In this document: positions 7,827 through 34,250 of the stretch, one piece after another | Layout of the letters: the number at the start of each line of letters is the position of its first letter | How positions within the stretch are numbered: the first letter of the stretch is position 1 | Position numbers and translations under genes: made by a program | The notes under the pieces: generated by a model | Databases searched by the model: none | What the model was told of the DNA's origin: nothing | What the model saw: only the letters and a program-made list of their open reading frames with translations | DNA from: Leptolyngbya sp. FACHB-261 | GTDB lineage: Bacteria > Cyanobacteriota > Cyanobacteriia > FACHB-261 | Direction: 5' to 3' | Length of the DNA: 64,000 nt | NCBI RefSeq assembly: GCF_014696065.1 | Contig: NZ_JACJPL010000015.1 | Span: forward strand, 434,001 to 498,000

Positions 7827-10800
7827 TCATTGGCATTCCCGGCTCAGAACTAACTGCCCATTCCCCAATCGATACAGACCCTGTGGCTCGACAACGGGGT
7901 CACCCATCTGCCAGGGGCGATGACTGCTGGTTGGGCTGTTGCTGGTAGAGGGTACGGTATAGGTTTCAAAGGTAGAGCTTGATAAGTCGTTCGGCAGTGC
8001 GGGTAGACCTCCTGCTCCTGTGATGGTGAATCTGCCACTTTGCTGATTGCTACGAGCGATACAGCTATTCGCTAGCAGAGTATTAGTGTCAATTAGATTA
8101 GCGGGTAGCTGCGTCAAGCTGTTCTGTAGAAAGGTGGTATCAGGGAGAGTAATAATTCCAGAGCTAACCCGACCAGTGGCGTTGACATCAACGCGACCAT
8201 TGCCATTCAGGGTATCGGGGGCAGTTCCTGAAGAAGCAGGCTGATAGCGGAAACCGAAGAAGACTGGAGTATCAAGGGTAATATTGCCGCCTCGACCATC
8301 ACGGGCGAAGGCAAGGATATCGCTGTCATTAAAGGCCAAGATAGTGTCAGCGTTTAAAGTAATGTTGCCACCACCACCTGCACCACTAGAGACAAAGGTA
8401 GTGATATCACTGTCACCATCAAGGCGAATATTGCCAGCGCTGATGCTAACAGCACCTCCTGAAGATTTGGCAGCAGTTGTTGAGATTACGCTGTTATTAG
8501 CGTACAAAGTATCTCGGATGTTGATGAAAACATTACCTGCGTTACCAGGAGTTGTCACTGCGCTGCCTTGATCAGTTCCGCTGCGGCTACTGATGCCTGC
8601 ATTATTAAGTAAAGACAGGGAATTAGCCTGTATTCGGATATTTCCACCGCTTCCCAAGCCCTGCGTATTTGCCGACACTTCTGCTCCGTCTCGGACAATT
8701 AACCGACCAGTATTAATGGTCAAATTGCCAGCATCTTTGAGACTAGTTGCCTCGGTGGACAGGCTGCTAGCACGAGTAAACTGCGCAAGCCCTAGTAGGT
8801 TGCTTGAGGAAACACCGCTTCCACTCACCTCTACAGAATCAGAGGCGGTAATGTCTAAATCTCCACCTCGCCCTGTACCGATGGAGGAAGTAGATACCGT
8901 TGCTCCGTCACGAATGATTAACCGCCCAGTCCGAATTGCTAAGCTACCCGCATCTCCGGTGGACAGTAGGGAAAGACTTACCAAACCGCTGTTTACCCCG
9001 ATCACCTCTACGGAATCAGCGGCAGTAACATCTAGGATTCCTCCTCGGCCTCTCGTGAGAGTTTGAAGCGAAGGGTTGTAACCTGAAGTGCTTGTAGTTA
9101 CTGCCGCTCCACCTTGAATCGTGAGTCGTCCTGTTCGAATCGTTAGGTTTCCTGCATCTCCAGTACTTGTTGTTCTTGTTGTCAAGCTGCTGATATTTCC
9201 ATCCGAGTCTTGACCCAATACCCTGATAACTTCTGAGGCGACTACAGTCAAATCACCGGCTCGCCCTGCTAGGCCAAAGGTTTCGGTTGATACTCTACCG
9301 CCATTACGAATGGTTAGCCGCTCGGTATTGAGCCTAAGATTTCCTCCAAGCGCTGGCTCTAGACCAGAGACAGTATCCAGCAGACGCCCTGTCTCTGCCA
9401 GCAGACTACTGGAAAAATAACCCTGCTCGCCATTGTTTGAGCTGCCAACTACTTCTATTTCAGAAGCCCTAATCGTTAAATCTCCACCTCGGCCTCGACC
9501 TAAAATTGCAGCCGTAGAGGTTGATACTGTTCCCCCATCTCGAACCCTCAGTTGGTCTGTTGTAAGGGTGAGGTTTCCAGCATCTGCAGCACCGTAAGTT
9601 GCGGTGAATAAGCCACTAGGGCTGCCTCCTCCATCCGTACCAATGATCTCTATGGCATCAGAGGCATTCACAGTCAAAGTTCCGCCTCGCCCCTCGCTGA
9701 ACGTACCAGCTTGCACCTGCGCTCCACCGGCAATCCACACGCGCTCAGCTTCGATTAATAAGTTTCCTGCAGGCCCTGTGACTCTGAGGCTTCCGTCATT
9801 ATCACCAGCTTGAGCCGATATCGTTGCTCTATCTTGAACAATCAAGTTTCTGGTTTGAACTAGCAGATTTCCACCCGCTCCCGTACCGTCAGTATTCACA
9901 TATAAACCACTGGGAGCAGAGCCTGAAGCTTCTGATGAGGTTCCATTAACTTCTACAGACTCGGAGGTGCGAATTGTTAGATTTCCTCCATCTCCTGAAC
10001 CAAGAGTTGAAGCTGATACATAGGCACCATCACGCACGATTAGGTTTCGGCTTGTGATCGTTAGATTTCCTGCATCTTCAGTTCCTCTCGTATCCACTGA
10101 TAAGACGCTAGGAAACTGTTCGGTTCCTCCCAACACTTCCACATTGTTGGAAGCATTGATCGTCAAAGTTCCACCTCGACCAGTGCTACTAGGAGCAGTA
10201 CCTACTTCTATTTGTGCCCCATCTCGAACAATTAAATCTCCAGTTGTGATTGCTAAGTTTCCTGAATCCCCAGGCCCTGCCGTTTGTACAAATAAGCCCC
10301 CAGGAAAGCCGTTCGATCCCACTCCTGAAAGCTCTACAAAATCTGAAGCAGTCACAGTTAAAGTTCCACCACGGCCCTCACCATTAGTATTGATTCCTAC
10401 TCCTGAACCGCCTTGAACAATTAACTGATTGGCCCGAATAGAAACTTCTCCTCCCTCTAACGAACCTAAGGTATTGGATACAACACTTGAACCGCCTTCA
10501 AGTGTCACTTTCCTTCCCTGGATCTGAACACTGCCTCCGCCTTCACCGCTCACTATCACTGAAGCTTGGTTTGTCAGTGAGACATCCGATCGGGTTGCAG
10601 CATTGGGAAATCTTAGGCTGAGATTGTTGTCAGCAGTGTCCAGCCCTACCTCGCCTGGTTCTGCTATTCCTGCCAGCTCAATTCGACCTCCAGCAGCTCC
10701 TAAAAAGCTGCCATCTAAAGTCACATCGCCCCCCAGTAGCAACAAACTTTGGCTGGGATAGACCGAGAAGCCTTCTCCAGTTGAACTGACTGTTATTGGA

Positions 10801-22629: not shown

Positions 22630-22790
22630 GGCTAGAATCAGGGACGCAAACCGTGAACCACTGTCGGGGTCGGGGAAAGCCCGGTGCAAGTCCGGCGCTG
22701 TGCCGCAACTGTGAGCCTTCGAGCCAGCCAGAACGCCCGGCCCTTTGCAGTTTTCACTCTATTCCCTGCGTTGCACGGGGAAGGAGACTC
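22630..22790 (+). promoter_or_regulatory. Cobalamin (adenosylcobalamin) riboswitch
   Basis: Conserved elements appear in order: CCACTG near 22658, GGGAAAGCCCGGTGCAAGTCC (22672-22692), GCTGTGCCGCAACTGTGAG (22697-22715, containing the B12 box) and GCCAGAACGCC. It ends in a segment where GAAGG pairs with CCTTC over AGACT, overlapping the Shine-Dalgarno of cbiX, so control by masking the ribosome-binding site is likely. Cobalt-chelatase control by B12 is a known arrangement. Confidence 0.88.
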
Positions 22791-22795
22791 CTTCT

Positions 22796-23818
22796 GTGTT
22801 GGCATTAACTATTCCGAAGCTCGACCTGGAACCCTTGCCTCTCCAGCGTCCACTGTTACTGGTTGGGCATGGCACGCGCGATGCTGAAGGGCGACAGAGC
22901 TTCCTAGATTTCGCTACTGCCTATCAGCAGTTAGATCATTCCCGCCCTGTCCTGCCCTGCTTTTTGGAACTGACTGAACCTAGTATTCAAAATGGCGTTG
23001 ACCAGTGTGTAGAGGCAGGCCACCTGGAGCTAAGCGTGTTGCCAGTGTTGCTATTTGCGGCACGACACAACAAATTTGATGTTACCAACGAGTTGGACCG
23101 CGCCAAGCAGCGCCACCCCGGTTTGCAGCTTCACTACGGACGGCATTTCGGCATTACGCCGAGCTTACTGAACCTCTGGAATGAACGTCTTGCCGCCCTC
23201 GACCAACCTGAGCACAATCCTGAGGCAATTCCCCGCTCTGAAACCGTGCTGTTGTTTGTGGGACGAGGCTCCAGCGATCCAGATGCCAATGGAGATGCTT
23301 GCAAATTGGCCCGCCTGCTCTGGGAGGGCAGTGGCTATGCCAGTGTGGAGACTTGCTTTATCGGCATCACCCACCCGCGATTAGAAGAAGGCTTCCGTCG
23401 TGCCCGTCTGGATCAGCCGCGTCGGATTATCGTGTTACCTCACTTTCTGTTTACCGGTGCTCTGGTGAAGAAGATTGTGGAGGCCACAGAAGCTCAGCAG
23501 GCCCTATTTCCTCACCTGCAAATTGACTGTCTGCCAGAGATTGGTCTGCATCCAGACCTGTTCTTGCTGCTTAGGGAGCGTGAACGCGAGACGCAATTAG
23601 GCGAGGTGCGGATGAATTGCGAGATGTGCAAGTTCCGCTTAATGCCACCCACTGAGGCCGAGGGTCACGGGCATGCTCATGGGCACGCACACGCTCATGG
23701 GCATGATCACGGGCACAGCCAGGAGCATGGGCACGGACACTCACATAGTCATGGCTCAGCCCCAGATTCGCTGGCAGAGCCAGCAGCTTATCACCAGCGC
23801 GTCTGGCAAACACCTTAA
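22796..23818 (+). CDS. cbiX: Sirohydrochlorin cobaltochelatase, long CbiX type
   Basis: Inserts Co2+ into sirohydrochlorin at the start of anaerobic-type cobalamin synthesis. GTG 22796 is chosen because AAGGAG lies about 10 bases upstream; a TTG at 22745 would fall inside the riboswitch. The 340-residue protein has two chelatase half-domains: [13 protein letters not shown] near 21-33 with the metal-site His, and [14 protein letters not shown] in the second half, where the equivalent His is absent. Near the C-terminus MNCEMCKFR supplies cysteines for the Fe-S centre reported in CbiX-L, followed by a tail with about 20 His ([18 protein letters not shown]) that likely stores cobalt. It is controlled by the upstream riboswitch. 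Confidence 0.92.
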
Positions 23819-23850: not shown

Positions 23851-26664
23851 TTACTGGGTTTGCTTCGGCCTGGAATACTGGAGGCTGACTTCCTGCAATT
23901 TCTCCGAGGAAGCCTCCAGTTCTATGCTGTCAGGCTGAGCAGGCTCACCGTTGACTTGTAGATTATAGGTGCCCTGCTGTAGCCTTTCTAGGTAATAAAC
24001 GCCGGCGTTGTTGGTCACCGAGAACATTCGCTGTTTGGAATCAGACTGAATGGCCTCCACCCTCACCCCGCCAAGAGGTTTCCCTTGAGGATCGGTGACA
24101 GTACCTGCCAAAGTGTAAGACGGAACCAGGGGAATCAGAACTGGTGTATGGCTCCCGGCCACAACTTCCACAGCCAAAGCATTCGATGCGACTTGCCAAT
24201 CAGCAGGAAAACCAGCAGGGTCAAAGTCTAAGCGATAAGTATTTGGCGGTAGGCGCAGAGAAATGCGGTCATTTAGAATTTCTGGACGCAGAGATTGGAT
24301 GGGCTGGTTGTTGAGCAGAATTAAGCTGGGGTCCGTATAGAAAGCCTCATTGGCATCTCGCCGACCATTGTTGTTACGGTCAAGAAAGGGTTGGATTAAC
24401 AGACCGCCCTGAGTGCGAAAGTAATTGGCATGACGATCGCCTGCTGTGATTCCCTGCTGAAAGTTGAGGCTGGGCACTAGCTCTAGGCTAAAAGTTGCTT
24501 GATCGGAAGTAACAGATACCCCTTGATATCGCGCTCTCACCATCAAGCCGGGCACGATTGTTGTCCCCACACTGGCAATTAGTCCCGAGCCCTGAGTGCC
24601 AACTGCATATCCCAACTCTGCTTGCCAGAGATAATTGCCGTCGATTGATCTCTGTTGTGAGTGGTAATGCCACGCCAAGCTTAATAACTTATCGCTACGG
24701 TTTTGATTTTGTGTTTCATAACCTAAAACTAAAGCATGGCCAGTTGTGAAATCGTTGTCTGGCGAAAAATCATAGCTCAGTTCAGAGCGAGAGCCAATTT
24801 CATTACCAAATTGGCTAAGTTGTAACCTGCCTAGGCGTTGAAATAAACTCCAGCGAAGACGACTTTTGGCATCTAAAGTAACCCGAGCGAAGGTAGAGGC
24901 AGTGCGGCTGCTAGAAACAATTTGTAGACCAGCGGCTACAGAATCTCGGCTATCTGCGATGCCTAGCAAGGTTAAGCCGGGAATGACTTGCCAATCTAAA
25001 TTGAAGCGACTGGAAAACTGGTCGCTGCTAAACTGTGCCCGAAAGTTACGAGAGGGTTCAAAGCTGATATTGGCGTTGATATCCCAAGAGCCATCCCCGC
25101 CCCCCGTAAGGGCAGACACTGCTACGCGCAGAGGCACACCTCTAGGCTGAAAGAACAGTTCTCCCAATCCCCGCATGGACTGGTCGTAGACTGCACCCAG
25201 ACCCACCGTCAGTTCTTGTGACAAGCCCCAGCGTTGAGCAATTCCTCCTTGAAAATCCGAGAAGTTGCCCAGGAATTTTCCCGCTTGGAAATTGAGTGGC
25301 TCGCGTTGAAATCCAGCTGAGATAACTAGAGCCGAGGCTCCTGCCGGAAGTTGACCAGGCACAATTGAGAAAGTTGCCTCTCGAATTTCAGGTTGAGCAG
25401 TTAAGCGGCCCTGAGGGTAAAGTAAGACGCGATAATTGCTCAGAAACTGGTTGTCAACTTTAACGTTTTCAAATCGATAAATACCAGAGGAATCTACCAA
25501 AACCTCGGTAACCAAGCGACTGTTGAAGCCTTGAGTTAGGCGCGCTAATGTGCCTGGCTCCGCGCGTCCTACGATTGTCTGACCTACTTGGGCTGCCTGT
25601 AGACGCTGACGTGGATCAGCCTCGCCATAGAGTTGTAGCTGTGGTACGAAGCCCTGCCGTTGAATAGTTGTAAAGCCCCAATAGTCGTTTGTTCCCTGGC
25701 TAGACCAGAAAGGGGGCTGAGAGCCGATGATGAAGTCGGACTGATTCGTCTGCCGCTGAAACCGAGCCTCAGCTAAGCTCCAAGTTCTTTGATTACGGAG
25801 GTCAGGCTGATCGGTTCGAATAAACCAACTGCCACCTAAGAGAGTGCCAACTGCCATTAGCTCTCCCCTAGCGTTTGTGGAGGTTCCCTGAGAACCACTC
25901 ACGTCAACTCGTTGCTCAATGGCTGCTAGCGATAAGGTTGAGGATCCAATGTATGGCAACCCTTCGAGTTGAATTGGAGTATCTATCGAGCTAACAGCTT
26001 GGTTGGTTTGTTCCAGCCAAGGTGCTTGCAACTGAATTGCATACTCATTGAGATCAAATTTCGCTTCAACGCCAAATAGAGTTTTTAGATCTTGCACGGA
26101 GAAGACCAGACCTAGTTCCGGGTCGGTCTGCACTCGCTTAGGATCGACACGGGTAACGAGGCCTGGTGACTGCAGCTCTACCTGACCATCAGGCAAAACT
26201 CTTGTACTAAATTGCAATGCCTTGATGACAGCATCGTAGGGCAAAAGCCATTGATCAAAACTAATAGCTTGGCTTCCATTCTCTTGCCCGCGTATCAAAA
26301 CACTAGAAATTACACTGCGGCTACCAGCATTTAATCCGACTGGAAAAACGCTAAATCCTGATGGAACCTGAGCTATCTGTGAGGAAGTTGTGTTTGATGA
26401 AGGTTCAGAGTGAGGGGAGGTTGAGGTGTCAGATGTAAGTATTGTTGGCGCAGTGATAGTTGAGGCACTATTCTCTTGAGAATTACCCTCTAACAACTGG
26501 GCCGAAGAGGATATGTTTGTTGTAGGAATAAATCTAGGATCAGCAACACCTCTAGGCGAGGCAAATTCAACGATGACTGGTTGAGGGGGAGGTGAGACTG
26601 GATAGGGCATATTCCAGCAGAAGAAGACCGACAAGCAAGTCAAATCCATCGCCTCGACGAGCAT
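23851..26664 (-). CDS. Usher-like outer-membrane protein of a chaperone-usher-type cluster
   Basis: A 937-residue protein. After a low-complexity Ser/Thr/Pro region (about 20-95) come a periplasmic domain with LPYDAVIKAL and FSVQDLKTLF, a long run of alternating strands typical of an outer-membrane barrel, and near the end DRNNNGRRDANEAF and a carboxypeptidase-regulatory-like fold (YTLAGTVTDPQGKPLGGVRVEA). This order resembles FimD/PapC ushers and the usher-like proteins paired with spore-coat-U subunits. It is last in a minus-strand cluster after a pilin-like gene and a PapD-like chaperone. The annotated N-terminus is unusual and the true start may differ. Confidence 0.7.
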   Translation of the reverse strand: MLVEAMDLTCLSVFFCWNMPYPVSPPPQPVIVEFASPRGVADPRFIPTTNISSSAQLLEGNSQENSASTITAPTILTSDTSTSPHSEPSSNTTSSQIAQVPSGFSVFPVGLNAGSRSVISSVLIRGQENGSQAISFDQWLLPYDAVIKALQFSTRVLPDGQVELQSPGLVTRVDPKRVQTDPELGLVFSVQDLKTLFGVEAKFDLNEYAIQLQAPWLEQTNQAVSSIDTPIQLEGLPYIGSSTLSLAAIEQRVDVSGSQGTSTNARGELMAVGTLLGGSWFIRTDQPDLRNQRTWSLAEARFQRQTNQSDFIIGSQPPFWSSQGTNDYWGFTTIQRQGFVPQLQLYGEADPRQRLQAAQVGQTIVGRAEPGTLARLTQGFNSRLVTEVLVDSSGIYRFENVKVDNQFLSNYRVLLYPQGRLTAQPEIREATFSIVPGQLPAGASALVISAGFQREPLNFQAGKFLGNFSDFQGGIAQRWGLSQELTVGLGAVYDQSMRGLGELFFQPRGVPLRVAVSALTGGGDGSWDINANISFEPSRNFRAQFSSDQFSSRFNLDWQVIPGLTLLGIADSRDSVAAGLQIVSSSRTASTFARVTLDAKSRLRWSLFQRLGRLQLSQFGNEIGSRSELSYDFSPDNDFTTGHALVLGYETQNQNRSDKLLSLAWHYHSQQRSIDGNYLWQAELGYAVGTQGSGLIASVGTTIVPGLMVRARYQGVSVTSDQATFSLELVPSLNFQQGITAGDRHANYFRTQGGLLIQPFLDRNNNGRRDANEAFYTDPSLILLNNQPIQSLRPEILNDRISLRLPPNTYRLDFDPAGFPADWQVASNALAVEVVAGSHTPVLIPLVPSYTLAGTVTDPQGKPLGGVRVEAIQSDSKQRMFSVTNNAGVYYLERLQQGTYNLQVNGEPAQPDSIELEASSEKLQEVSLQYSRPKQTQ

Positions 26665-26725
26665 CTACACCGAGGCAATGTCAGCTTCTTTTGAGCCCTA
26701 ACATCAATGTCTGGGCTACCTTATC

Positions 26726-27595
26726 TCATCGATTAGAACTTGCGCTAGAACGGGCAGGAATGGTCAAGGTCACATTAAATGGAACAGCCTTTTTACTATC
26801 ACTCCCGCCCCAAGTTAAATTCCCAGCTAATTCATAGCTGCCTGGTTGCAATAATGCTTGCTCTGGGCTGGAATTGCTTAGCCCAAGATTACGTTCACTC
26901 TGGGCGACGAGTGATATTTGCTCCAAATTTCCAGTTCGAACTGTAGATCCTTCTTTTTTTAGGGTCCAAGAACCAGTTAATTGAACAGAGGCCTGACCTG
27001 CATTGCGAACTAGTAACTGCAGTTGATTTCGCTCAACATTGTAGCTAGCGCTCTCTGCAACTGGTTGAGGCGATAATTCCCCATTTCTTACATAAACGGT
27101 GGCACCAATCCGAGTAATGATACCGACGTTATTACCACTGCCATTGCTACCAGTGGTCTCAGTTAATGGCTCTGCAAACACCACAGCTCGATATTCACCA
27201 TTGCCAAGGCTGGGAACAAACCGAGCAATGAAGCGGACTCGCCTTGTTACTCCCGGCGGAATAGTTAGCTCGCGGGGGGAGAACTGCAAGTAAGGGCTAA
27301 GATCGCTGGGATTGGACGGTATTACTTCAAAGCCACGGTCACGGCTGTAAGTGAAGGGCTCAACGTAGACTCGGGCACGCAGCTCTGCGTTGCTGGTATT
27401 GCTGATGTTGATGGTGCCTTGGGCCTGACCTCGGTTAGCCTGCACCTCAACAATCATTGGCGAGATGCCCAATTGCGCTTGGGCCGAACCAGCCCAAAGC
27501 AAGGCAGCAGATAACAAGCAACCGCTATAGCGAAAAGCTCTAGAGACAACTCTAGACGTTGCTAGAAACTTAGAAACTACACTCGGCACAGTCAT
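26726..27595 (-). CDS. PapD-like periplasmic pilus chaperone
   Basis: A 289-residue exported protein. Start ATG 27595 is chosen over an upstream in-frame start because AGAGG lies 5 bases before it; signal peptide ends SAQAQ. The mature part opens LGISPMIVEVQANRGQAQGTINISN, matching the first strand of PapD-like chaperones, with YLQFSPRELTIPPGVTRRVRF as the alignment of the donor-strand region and a second Ig-like domain after residue 170. Such chaperones hold pilus subunits in the periplasm and deliver them to the usher. It stands between the pilin-like gene (240 bases away) and the usher-like gene (62 bases). Confidence 0.78.
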   Translation of the reverse strand: MTVPSVVSKFLATSRVVSRAFRYSGCLLSAALLWAGSAQAQLGISPMIVEVQANRGQAQGTINISNTSNAELRARVYVEPFTYSRDRGFEVIPSNPSDLSPYLQFSPRELTIPPGVTRRVRFIARFVPSLGNGEYRAVVFAEPLTETTGSNGSGNNVGIITRIGATVYVRNGELSPQPVAESASYNVERNQLQLLVRNAGQASVQLTGSWTLKKEGSTVRTGNLEQISLVAQSERNLGLSNSSPEQALLQPGSYELAGNLTWGGSDSKKAVPFNVTLTIPARSSASSNR

Positions 27596-27834
27596 TGAAC
27601 CTCTACATCCAGTCTCGAAGGTTGTTAAGAAAAAGACCATCTGGAGCTTTGTCAGAACGTCTGTTCCGTCTGGAGCGAGGTATTAACCTATTGGAGATTT
27701 TTCAATGATTTGATTAAGCCATTTAAGCCAGTGGGAAAACCTACATTTCTTGCTCTAATGGTTAGAGGCAGAGCGTTTTCCCACAAAGATCATTAACATG
27801 AGAAGCAGGCACTGATAGCATTAGTAGCAGCTTG

Positions 27835-28314
27835 CTACTGAGGAGTAGCTGTCAATTTGACTTTGTATCCGTAGGCTCCTGCCTCAAGGAAATCATCTTT
27901 CACAACTCTCATGTTGACATTTAAGGTTGTGACGCCAATCGGTAGTGCGACCGGTGCAGCAGGACCTGTTAAATTGCTCAGTACATTGTTAACCAAGCCA
28001 TTACCACTGACAGTTGCAGAGGCTGCGGTCGGCGTGAAGCTAGGACCCAGGGTCTGAATAGGAGCATCAACAGTTAGGTTAGTCCTTGTATTACAAGTCA
28101 GAACAGCAATTCCAGCGAGTCCTCCGGTTGCAGTACTATCTAAAGCCGTTGAGTTATCAGTAGTTCCTAGCAATCCGGCAGTGGGAACAAAGGCGCATAC
28201 GCTTAGCACAGTTCCAGTGAAGGGAATATCGGTTGTCACCGCGCCAGCCGCAGGTGTAAAGGCAACAGCACTACTCAGAGTCAGGACAGAAGCTAGCAAG
28301 GTACGACGAATCAT
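27835..28314 (-). CDS. Pilin-like (spore coat U/fimbrial) subunit
   Basis: A 159-residue exported protein with signal peptide to about 25 (AAGAV). The mature sequence starts TTDIPFTGTVLSVCAFVP and has LTCNTRTNL further on, giving a likely disulfide of the kind that links the first strands of archaic pilins. It ends YGYKVKLTATPQ, with Thr/Val-rich strands in between. AAGGA lies 8 bases before the ATG. It is first in the minus-strand cluster with chaperone and usher, the usual order of an archaic chaperone-usher operon. Assignment rests on context, cysteines and composition more than on a signature. Confidence 0.65.
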   Translation of the reverse strand: MIRRTLLASVLTLSSAVAFTPAAGAVTTDIPFTGTVLSVCAFVPTAGLLGTTDNSTALDSTATGGLAGIAVLTCNTRTNLTVDAPIQTLGPSFTPTAASATVSGNGLVNNVLSNLTGPAAPVALPIGVTTLNVNMRVVKDDFLEAGAYGYKVKLTATPQ

Positions 28315-32705: not shown

Positions 32706-34250
32706 GTGCGTCTGTTTACAACAGCAGCCGCGCTGCGCTGCTTTTTAGTGGCCATCGGCCAAGGTAAAGAGGTTGGACTAGTGCCCACGATGGGGGCACT
32801 CCACGAGGGGCACATCAGCTTGATCACCCGTGCTCGCCGCGAGTGCGATCTCGTCGTAGTCAGTATTTTTGTCAATCCCTTGCAGTTTGGTCCCAACGAA
32901 GATTATCAGCGCTATCCCAGGGCTCTGGAGCGGGATCGGGAGCTTTGTGAAGCGGCCGGTGTGGATGTAATCTTTACCCCCTCCCCCGAAGAATTATTTC
33001 CTGAGGGCTTCGGTACCCAAGTAGAGCCACCGCTAGCCATGCGCTCAGTGCTTTGTGGGCGCTCTCGACCTCAGCATTTTGAAGGAGTCGCTACTATTGT
33101 CACCAAGTTGTTGAATCTAGTGCAACCACAGCGAGCTTATTTTGGCCAAAAGGATGCCCAGCAGCTTGCGATCCTACAACGGCTGGTTGCTGACTTGAAT
33201 ATTCCGACTGAGATTGTGCCCTGTCCGATTGTGCGAGAACCTGGTGGTCTAGCGCTTAGCTCGCGCAATCAATACCTCACTGAGTCGGAACGCAACGCTG
33301 CCACTGTACTTTACCGGGCTCTACGCGAAGCAGAACAAACCTTCAAACAGGGAGAGCGAGACGCTGAGGTGCTCACGCAGACAATCAAAGATGTTCTGCT
33401 GACTGAACCGACAGTGCAGCCTGAGTATGTGGAGCTAGTCCATCCTCAGACATTGGCACCACTAACGGAAATACAGACGATGGGACTACTGGCTATCGCA
33501 GCTCGAGTGGGTCCGACTCGCCTGATCGATAACCTGATTCTGCGCTGGCGCAAGCCGATTATTGCGATTGATGGACCTGCAGGCGCGGGTAAATCAACAG
33601 TGGCACGGGCTGTGGCGAGACAACTAAACTTGCTCTACCTTGATACAGGCGCTATGTACCGAGCGGTGACCTGGCTCATGCTTGAAACCCATACAGATTC
33701 TCAAGATGAGCCTGCAGTCGCTGAGTTGCTGAGCCACTGCAACATCTTGCTCACCAGCAGTGATGACCCAGCCTACCCCTCTCGGGTCTGGGTCAACGAC
33801 CATGAGGTCAGCCACGATATCCGCACCCAAGCGGTGACCGCTCAAGTTTCTGCAATAGCAGCTCTATCAGTTGTTCGTGCCCAACTTGTGCGTCAGCAGC
33901 AGCAGTTGGGGCTCCAAGGGGGGTTGGTCATGGAGGGCCGTGACATTGGTACACGAGTCTTCCCAGATGCTGAGCTCAAAGTCTTTTTGACAGCTTCTGT
34001 TCAGGAACGTGCTCGGCGGCGTCAGCAGGATTTGCGCCAGCTCGGTGAGGACAACGACTCTTTACTCGACATCGAACAGGCGATCTCCCATCGTGATGCT
34101 CTAGACAGCAATCGTGAGCTCTCCCCGTTACGCAAGGCTAATGATGCTATTGAGCTGTGCACGGATGGCTGCACGATTGATCAGGTTACCAACCAGATTG
34201 TCAACCTTTATCAGCAGTTTCTAGCTCACGCTTCGCAGCCAGAGTCTTAG
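32706..34250 (+). CDS. panC/cmk: Bifunctional pantoate-beta-alanine ligase and cytidylate kinase
   Basis: A 514-residue fusion found in cyanobacteria. Residues 1 to about 280 are pantothenate synthetase (VPTMGALHEGHISLI with the ATP-binding HxGH-like motif, FVNPLQFGPNEDYQRYPR, FGQKDAQQLAILQRLV, SSRNQYLT), the last step of vitamin B5 synthesis. From about 283 is CMP kinase: IAIDGPAGAGKSTVARAVA (P-loop), YLDTGAMYRAVTW, GGLVMEGRDIGTRVFPDAELKVFLTA, and a terminal helix. The start is GTG with GGGGG 5 bases upstream. Pantothenate and pyrimidine nucleotide pathways are joined in one polypeptide. Confidence 0.96.
   Translation: MRLFTTAAALRCFLVAIGQGKEVGLVPTMGALHEGHISLITRARRECDLVVVSIFVNPLQFGPNEDYQRYPRALERDRELCEAAGVDVIFTPSPEELFPEGFGTQVEPPLAMRSVLCGRSRPQHFEGVATIVTKLLNLVQPQRAYFGQKDAQQLAILQRLVADLNIPTEIVPCPIVREPGGLALSSRNQYLTESERNAATVLYRALREAEQTFKQGERDAEVLTQTIKDVLLTEPTVQPEYVELVHPQTLAPLTEIQTMGLLAIAARVGPTRLIDNLILRWRKPIIAIDGPAGAGKSTVARAVARQLNLLYLDTGAMYRAVTWLMLETHTDSQDEPAVAELLSHCNILLTSSDDPAYPSRVWVNDHEVSHDIRTQAVTAQVSAIAALSVVRAQLVRQQQQLGLQGGLVMEGRDIGTRVFPDAELKVFLTASVQERARRRQQDLRQLGEDNDSLLDIEQAISHRDALDSNRELSPLRKANDAIELCTDGCTIDQVTNQIVNLYQQFLAHASQPES

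Follow-up and report, generated by a model that had tools for sequence, protein, structure and literature searches.

Three genes lie in line on the minus strand of the window (the whole 64,000-nt stretch of DNA that was analysed), and their open reading frames encode a pilin-like protein, a PapD-like chaperone and an usher-like protein, in this order (Table 1). The intergenic gaps measure 194 bp (pilin-chaperone) and 61 bp (chaperone-usher). The cluster is flanked upstream by the gene of an ABC-F-like ATPase and downstream by that of a CbiX-domain protein; both run on the plus strand, so that the operon is made up of the pilin, chaperone and usher genes alone. The initial annotation had placed the three genes consecutively on one strand, and the coordinates agree with this. 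The arrangement is not due to chance, because pilin(s), chaperone and usher follow one another on one strand also in 47 of the 62 relatives having at least 4 kb of sequence upstream of the usher, which is the gene clustering of a chaperone-usher (CU) pathway. The promoter and terminator scan gave promoter-like sites only at chance level, and no Rfam family was found in the window. As for the other genes of the window, the CbiX protein downstream (22745-23818, plus strand) contains two copies of the CbiX domain, ends in a long tail rich in His and is probably metal-binding, and a single 514-aa ORF (32706-34250, plus strand) resembles, by eye, a PanC-cytidylate kinase fusion.

Table 1. Positions in the window of the three genes and of the regions of the usher
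Feature	Coordinates	Strand	Description
Pilin	27835..28314	-	159 aa; signal peptide residues 1 to ~25; N-terminal extension; Ig-like domain from ~residue 40; C-terminal strand GAYGYKVKLTATPQ
Chaperone	26726..27640	-	304 aa; periplasmic PapD-like two-domain protein of non-classical type; invariant Pro122 and Arg151
Usher	23851..26664	-	937 aa; outer-membrane usher
Usher residues 1-104	26353..26664	-	Non-conserved stretch of N-terminal leader plus disordered linker rich in Ser/Thr/Pro; pLDDT in the 30s
Usher residues 105-213	26026..26352	-	N-terminal periplasmic domain; strands/helices in the model; expected receiver of chaperone-subunit complexes
Usher residues 244-734	24463..25935	-	Beta-barrel including the plug; six strands ahead of the plug
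Usher residues 362-437	25354..25581	-	Plug inserted after barrel strand 6
Usher residues 753-931	23872..24408	-	CTD1 (D-x-N-x-N-G-x-x-D-x-x-E loop) and CTD2, the latter being CarboxypepD_reg (851-919)

Predicted folds and signature residues

The model predicted for the pilin from a 79-sequence alignment (pLDDT 89) consists of an all-beta sandwich and a free N-terminal extension. This extension carries the donor-strand pattern I30-x-F32-x-G34-x-V36, conserved in the pilin relatives as V/I-x-F-x-G-x-V. Cys40 and Cys74 are both present in 64 and both absent in 10 of the 79 sequences, and their being present or missing together points to a disulphide between them. In the Foldseek search, CU pilins made up most of the top ranks; Caf1 and CfaB led the list (E ~1e-3), with CS17 pilins also matching. 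The VIA re-alignment placed the archaeal cannula proteins CanA at the top (Z 8.8-7.6), followed by the CfaE, FimH and FimG pilin domains, Caf1, CfaB, EcpA and CsuA/B (Z 5.6-6.9), a range (Z 5.6-8.8) that is no proof by itself. Thus, the small protein, which had been taken for an Ig-like pilin, has a predicted fold matching that of CU pilins; the model and the profile match described below agree on an Ig-like fold that is incomplete and is preceded by an N-terminal donor strand. The Pfam scan of the window pilin gave no match, PF05229 included, no pilin chains emerged when its profile was compared with the PDB sequences, and no such pilin was found in viral contigs.

In the chaperone, Pro122 and Arg151 are invariant in all of the 55 relatives and align with Pro60 and Arg89 of EcpB, the spacing being 29 residues in both proteins. 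The former matches the invariant domain-1 proline of the CU superfamily. The latter corresponds to the domain-1 arginine (CsuC/EcpB Arg89) that binds the subunit C-terminus and is common to archaic and alternative chaperones (PMC4654587). The columns aligned with the domain-2 Arg/Tyr anchor (CsuC Arg174/Tyr196, EcpB Arg148/Tyr169) are not conserved; this pair is also missing from most SCPU chaperones of this alignment, so that the alignment is unsafe there, and Arg250 and Tyr269, which are invariant among the relatives, could serve as the domain-2 anchor. The Pfam scan of the window chaperone returned nothing useful and no PF00345, and PapD_N is absent from the families listed for the 55 close chaperones. 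A faint match to the fimbrial chaperone TcfA was found in NCBIfam (E 4e-4), and the chaperone profile matched EcpB (E 3e-5) and CfaA (E 2e-4) weakly.

The usher model (54 sequences, pLDDT 79.6) consists of barrel strands 1-6 (residues 244-337), the plug, further strands up to residue 734 and two beta domains, preceded by an N-terminal domain; that is, it has the parts of an usher. The first 17 Foldseek ranks are all FimD/PapC (E 2e-23 to 1.5e-9), as are 18 of the 19 best matches, the best non-usher match having an E of 2e-9. In the VIA list, the 15 top entries are ushers (Z 14.8-12.4), and the model aligns to FimD over 512 residues (Z 14.8), its residue 931 falling on FimD residue 833. The N-terminal domain overlaps that of FimD/PapC in part and is the weakest stretch of the match. 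The earlier suggestion of a barrel with a plug is therefore upheld by both the predicted model and the fold searches.

Two peculiarities had been attributed to this protein. The first, an extra carboxypeptidase-regulatory-like domain, is right as to the presence of the domain (PF13620, E 1.2e-13 in Pfam, the weaker matches being to similar C-terminal domains) but not as to its being extra: it was found in 28/28 related ushers scanned and it falls on the C-terminal end of FimD/PapC. The same region aligns with the C-terminal end of the SCPU ushers, and those of the published type give weak CarboxypepD_reg matches at the same C-terminal place. An added module was therefore rejected; the domain is the usual C-terminal one of ushers, and in this branch it is closer to the consensus. 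The second, the Ser/Thr/Pro N-terminus, exists as a composition (47% S+T+P in residues 24-104 versus 20% elsewhere), but this stretch is a linker, disordered and variable (36-206 residues in the usher relatives, pLDDT ~35), rather than a conserved domain. The usher as read, which begins MLVEAMDLTCLSVFFCWN, lacks a convincing signal peptide. In the neighbouring frame (26580-26680, minus strand) there is a Leu-rich stretch without a good start codon, so a frameshift or a sequencing error at the usher start, correction of which would give the protein a signal peptide, is possible.

Relationship to known chaperone-usher systems

The profiles of the three proteins were compared (hhalign) with those of the genes of PF00577-positive clusters in Cyanobacteria, whose members carry Usher PF00577, PapD_N PF00345 and SCPU PF05229 above the cut-off, two of the four reference subunits scanned being without an SCPU match. 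The E-values were 4.2e-13 for the pilin against the SCPU-cluster subunits, 4.4e-15 for the chaperone against the PF00345-bearing chaperones and 1.1e-10 for the usher against the SCPU-cluster ushers, the last over 655 columns, which begin where the N-terminal domain ends and run to the C-terminus. Because such values are pairwise and uncalibrated, control comparisons were run (LptD, BamA, FhuA, Skp and mismatched partners), giving E 0.002 to 0.6. The values for the SCPU partners are far better than these; on sequence grounds, therefore, all three proteins are homologues of known CU components, and the assignment of the cluster to the chaperone-usher type in the initial annotation is borne out by the fold searches and by these profile tests. 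The Pfam and NCBIfam scans gave no match to the Usher, PapD and SCPU models in the three window proteins, PF00577 had no match across the host genome, and the usher profile retrieved no usher chains from the PDB sequences.

In the usher tree, in which the sigma ushers come from cyanobacteria only and the deep branches are uncertain, the window branch and a second, distant sub-branch split from the SCPU and classical ushers with a support of 0.98, that is, apart from the sigma ushers. EcpC, placed with the window branch by a long branch and possibly through an artefact, is the one alpha usher in the comparison; against it the usher profile gave an E of 0.02, and CooC_C matches were obtained in 4/28 relatives (best E 0.04). 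As regards the domain markers of the archaic class, the window proteins are without a PF05229 or PF00577 match above the cut-off. Based on the Pro122/Arg151 signature and on the separate usher branch, we have filed the cluster as a non-classical CU system, which would be sister to the SCPU class rather than inside it.

The idea that a CU cluster is surprising in a cyanobacterium had to be abandoned, since SCPU/PapD/Usher operons have already been published for this phylum (PMC4390875, PMC7005997, PMC5853447). CU systems are thus known there as the SCPU type, and the window branch is a different, unannotated one; no account of it was found in the open-access literature, an absence that is weak evidence. 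The SCPU-type clusters, such as CccS/CccP/Slr0019-UshA of Synechocystis (PMC4390875, PMC6755745), share with the present cluster similar protein sizes, the adjacent genes in the same order in most species, three homologous profiles, the CarboxypepD_reg-like usher C-terminus and the Pro/Arg chaperone signature. It might accordingly be supposed that the cluster is an ordinary member of these published (archaic, sigma) systems whose sequences have merely evolved faster. Its three profiles match the SCPU-cluster partners far better than anything else, the gene order is identical, and weak SCPU matches appear in 4/31 pilin relatives (best E 0.008). We regard this explanation as doubtful, however, in view of the separate usher branch, of the failure of PF00577 to reach any of the 28 related ushers scanned, even at E 0.1, and of the presence of both usher kinds as separate loci in 6 of the 292 genomes sampled (G022, G048, G064, G087, G091 and G133). 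The window branch also differs in going unrecognised by PF00345 and PF05229 and in its longer usher with a disordered N-terminal linker.

The likeness to the alternative (alpha) systems EcpABCD (the E. coli common pilus), CFA/I and Tcf lies in the chaperone matches to EcpB/CfaA/TcfA and in the pilin model matches to CfaB and CS17, whereas the usher profile does not match EcpC and the window operon is without a large tip adhesin. With the classical type 1 and P pili (FimCD, PapCD) the cluster shares the usher fold, namely the barrel, the plug after six strands and the C-terminal domains, but its profiles match neither FimD-type ushers (E 0.013) nor FimC-type chaperones (E 0.0019), and its chaperone carries the arginine of non-classical systems. 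One-subunit fibres such as Caf1 likewise combine a single Ig-like subunit with a chaperone and an usher, and Caf1 is the best Foldseek match of the pilin model; however, the sequence relationship is not clear (18% identity in the structural match) and the Caf1 systems are classical. Tentatively, and as the less probable side of the question, the branch might be a further CU class besides the classical, alternative and archaic ones, which would have radiated in cyanobacteria together with the second unannotated sub-branch and would build a fibre type not yet seen.

Distribution and genome setting

The usher profile matched in 31 of the 292 sampled cyanobacterial genomes, ~25 of which hold close members, and the PF00577 model in 18. 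The carriers include many genera that are filamentous, form mats or live in symbiosis (Nostoc, Calothrix, Fischerella, Moorena). When 84,980 species were scanned, 128 related places emerged, the best 80 of which are all cyanobacterial except one, in a Ca. Parabeggiatoa MAG. On the contig of this MAG (QNER01000183.1, L138) the cluster is accompanied by a sigma-54-activator-like ORF, and part of an usher C-terminus occurs a second time at 8255-8623; either the cluster was transferred between cyanobacteria and relatives of Beggiatoa or the contig was misbinned. The usher and chaperone were not found on plasmids, and there is thus no sign of plasmid carriage. Of the 62 relatives, 57 have a chaperone gene no further than 4 kb away and 54 a pilin gene no further than 5 kb away; the 47 ordered clusters carry one (23), two (19) or three (5) pilin copies.

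Two further groups of ushers were observed. The second sub-branch of the tree (L034, L035, L036, L043, L044, L045; e.g., L034:6159-12069) comprises unannotated ushers of 945-1246 aa with ~20% identity, preceded in conserved order by the genes of a PapD-like chaperone and of two small secreted proteins, many of which end like AGxYxGxLxV (Pfam matches in 0/4 scanned); it probably represents a further cyanobacterial CU variant. Barrels of 464-659 aa that are related to ushers (L031:7242-9206, L032:9299-11278, L033:9674-11068) have no chaperone or pilin match nearby, are apparently without C-terminal domains and are possibly relics or repurposed barrels.

The host genome (6.95 Mb, 36 contigs, 97.7% complete) is the sole representative of its order among the searched genomes, with no close relatives for comparison, and the chaperone, pilin and usher profiles each match it once. 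The single copy of each gene is consistent with a one-subunit fibre, and the single pilin-profile and chaperone-profile matches accord with the earlier remark that no tip adhesin is seen, even though a divergent adhesin may lie elsewhere in the genome. Among the relatives, a protein of 297 aa in which two pilin-like domains stand in tandem (L135:4042-4935) is the sole two-domain subunit or adhesin candidate, no other convincing longer two-domain pilin-like adhesin having been found there.

Proposed working and significance

Taken together, the predicted folds of the pilin and usher, the homology of the three parts, the signature residues and the conserved operon lead us to read the locus as a complete minimal CU pilus operon of non-classical type, belonging to a branch whose sisters are the archaic (sigma, spore-coat-U) systems, with a probability of nearly 0.9. 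What speaks against this reading is the absence of a Pfam Usher match in the related ushers tested and of PapD_N among the families listed for the close chaperones, the lack of conservation at the columns of the domain-2 Arg/Tyr anchor, the want of a convincing signal peptide in the usher as read, the modest Foldseek E-value of the pilin and the place of CanA at the head of its VIA list. The last point, CanA forming a tubular assembly, could also be taken to mean that the operon product is not a pilus but either a surface coat without fibres, like the one proposed for Myxococcus spores, or a secreted soluble Ig-like protein. Such a product would suit a single subunit without a recognisable tip adhesin, and Myxococcus SCPU systems are tied to the spore coat in the passages of PMC7005997 and PMC3610870 that cite Leng et al. 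We consider it unlikely, because the N-terminal extension of the pilin fits donor-strand exchange, which would polymerise the subunits, and because the 1-3 tandem pilins of the relatives resemble multi-subunit pili. A last possibility is that the large protein belongs to some other kind of outer-membrane barrel (a porin, a TonB-type protein or a polysaccharide exporter), has accessory Ig/TTR domains and stands beside unrelated Ig-like periplasmic proteins. This is close to refuted: barrels as a class (VDAC, Tom40) do score up to Z 12 in the VIA list, just below the ushers, but in Foldseek all other barrels score 1e-4 or worse against 2e-23 for the ushers, the plug and the two C-terminal domains stand in usher order, the FhuA, LptD and BamA profile controls fail, and the co-occurrence with chaperone and pilin is conserved.

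If the operon does encode a minimal CU pilus, the pilin would be exported across the inner membrane through Sec, and in the periplasm the chaperone would hold the incomplete Ig fold of the pilin, the C-terminus of which may be anchored by Arg151 of the chaperone. The chaperone-pilin complex would then dock on the N-terminal domain of the usher, whose plug would swing out of the barrel; the V/I-x-F-x-G-x-V strand of each incoming pilin would displace the chaperone strand in the previous one, and the chain would thread out through the usher as a thin one-subunit fibre. We infer polymerisation, secretion and the fibre on the cell by analogy, and a role in attachment or in filament coating can be no more than guessed at from other CU systems.

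Cyanobacterial surface fibres beyond type IV pili are largely uncharacterised. The usher mutant of Synechocystis still flocculates (PMC6755745), and this deletion is uninformative on the window branch. The published surveys that were consulted relied on the SCPU, PapD and Usher domains, which the window branch escapes; as it occurs nonetheless in ~25/292 sampled species, about a tenth of the cyanobacterial species sampled, against the 18 with a recognisable usher, the CU counts in this phylum are too low. The three-gene cluster offers, moreover, a naturally minimal system for studying non-classical assembly.
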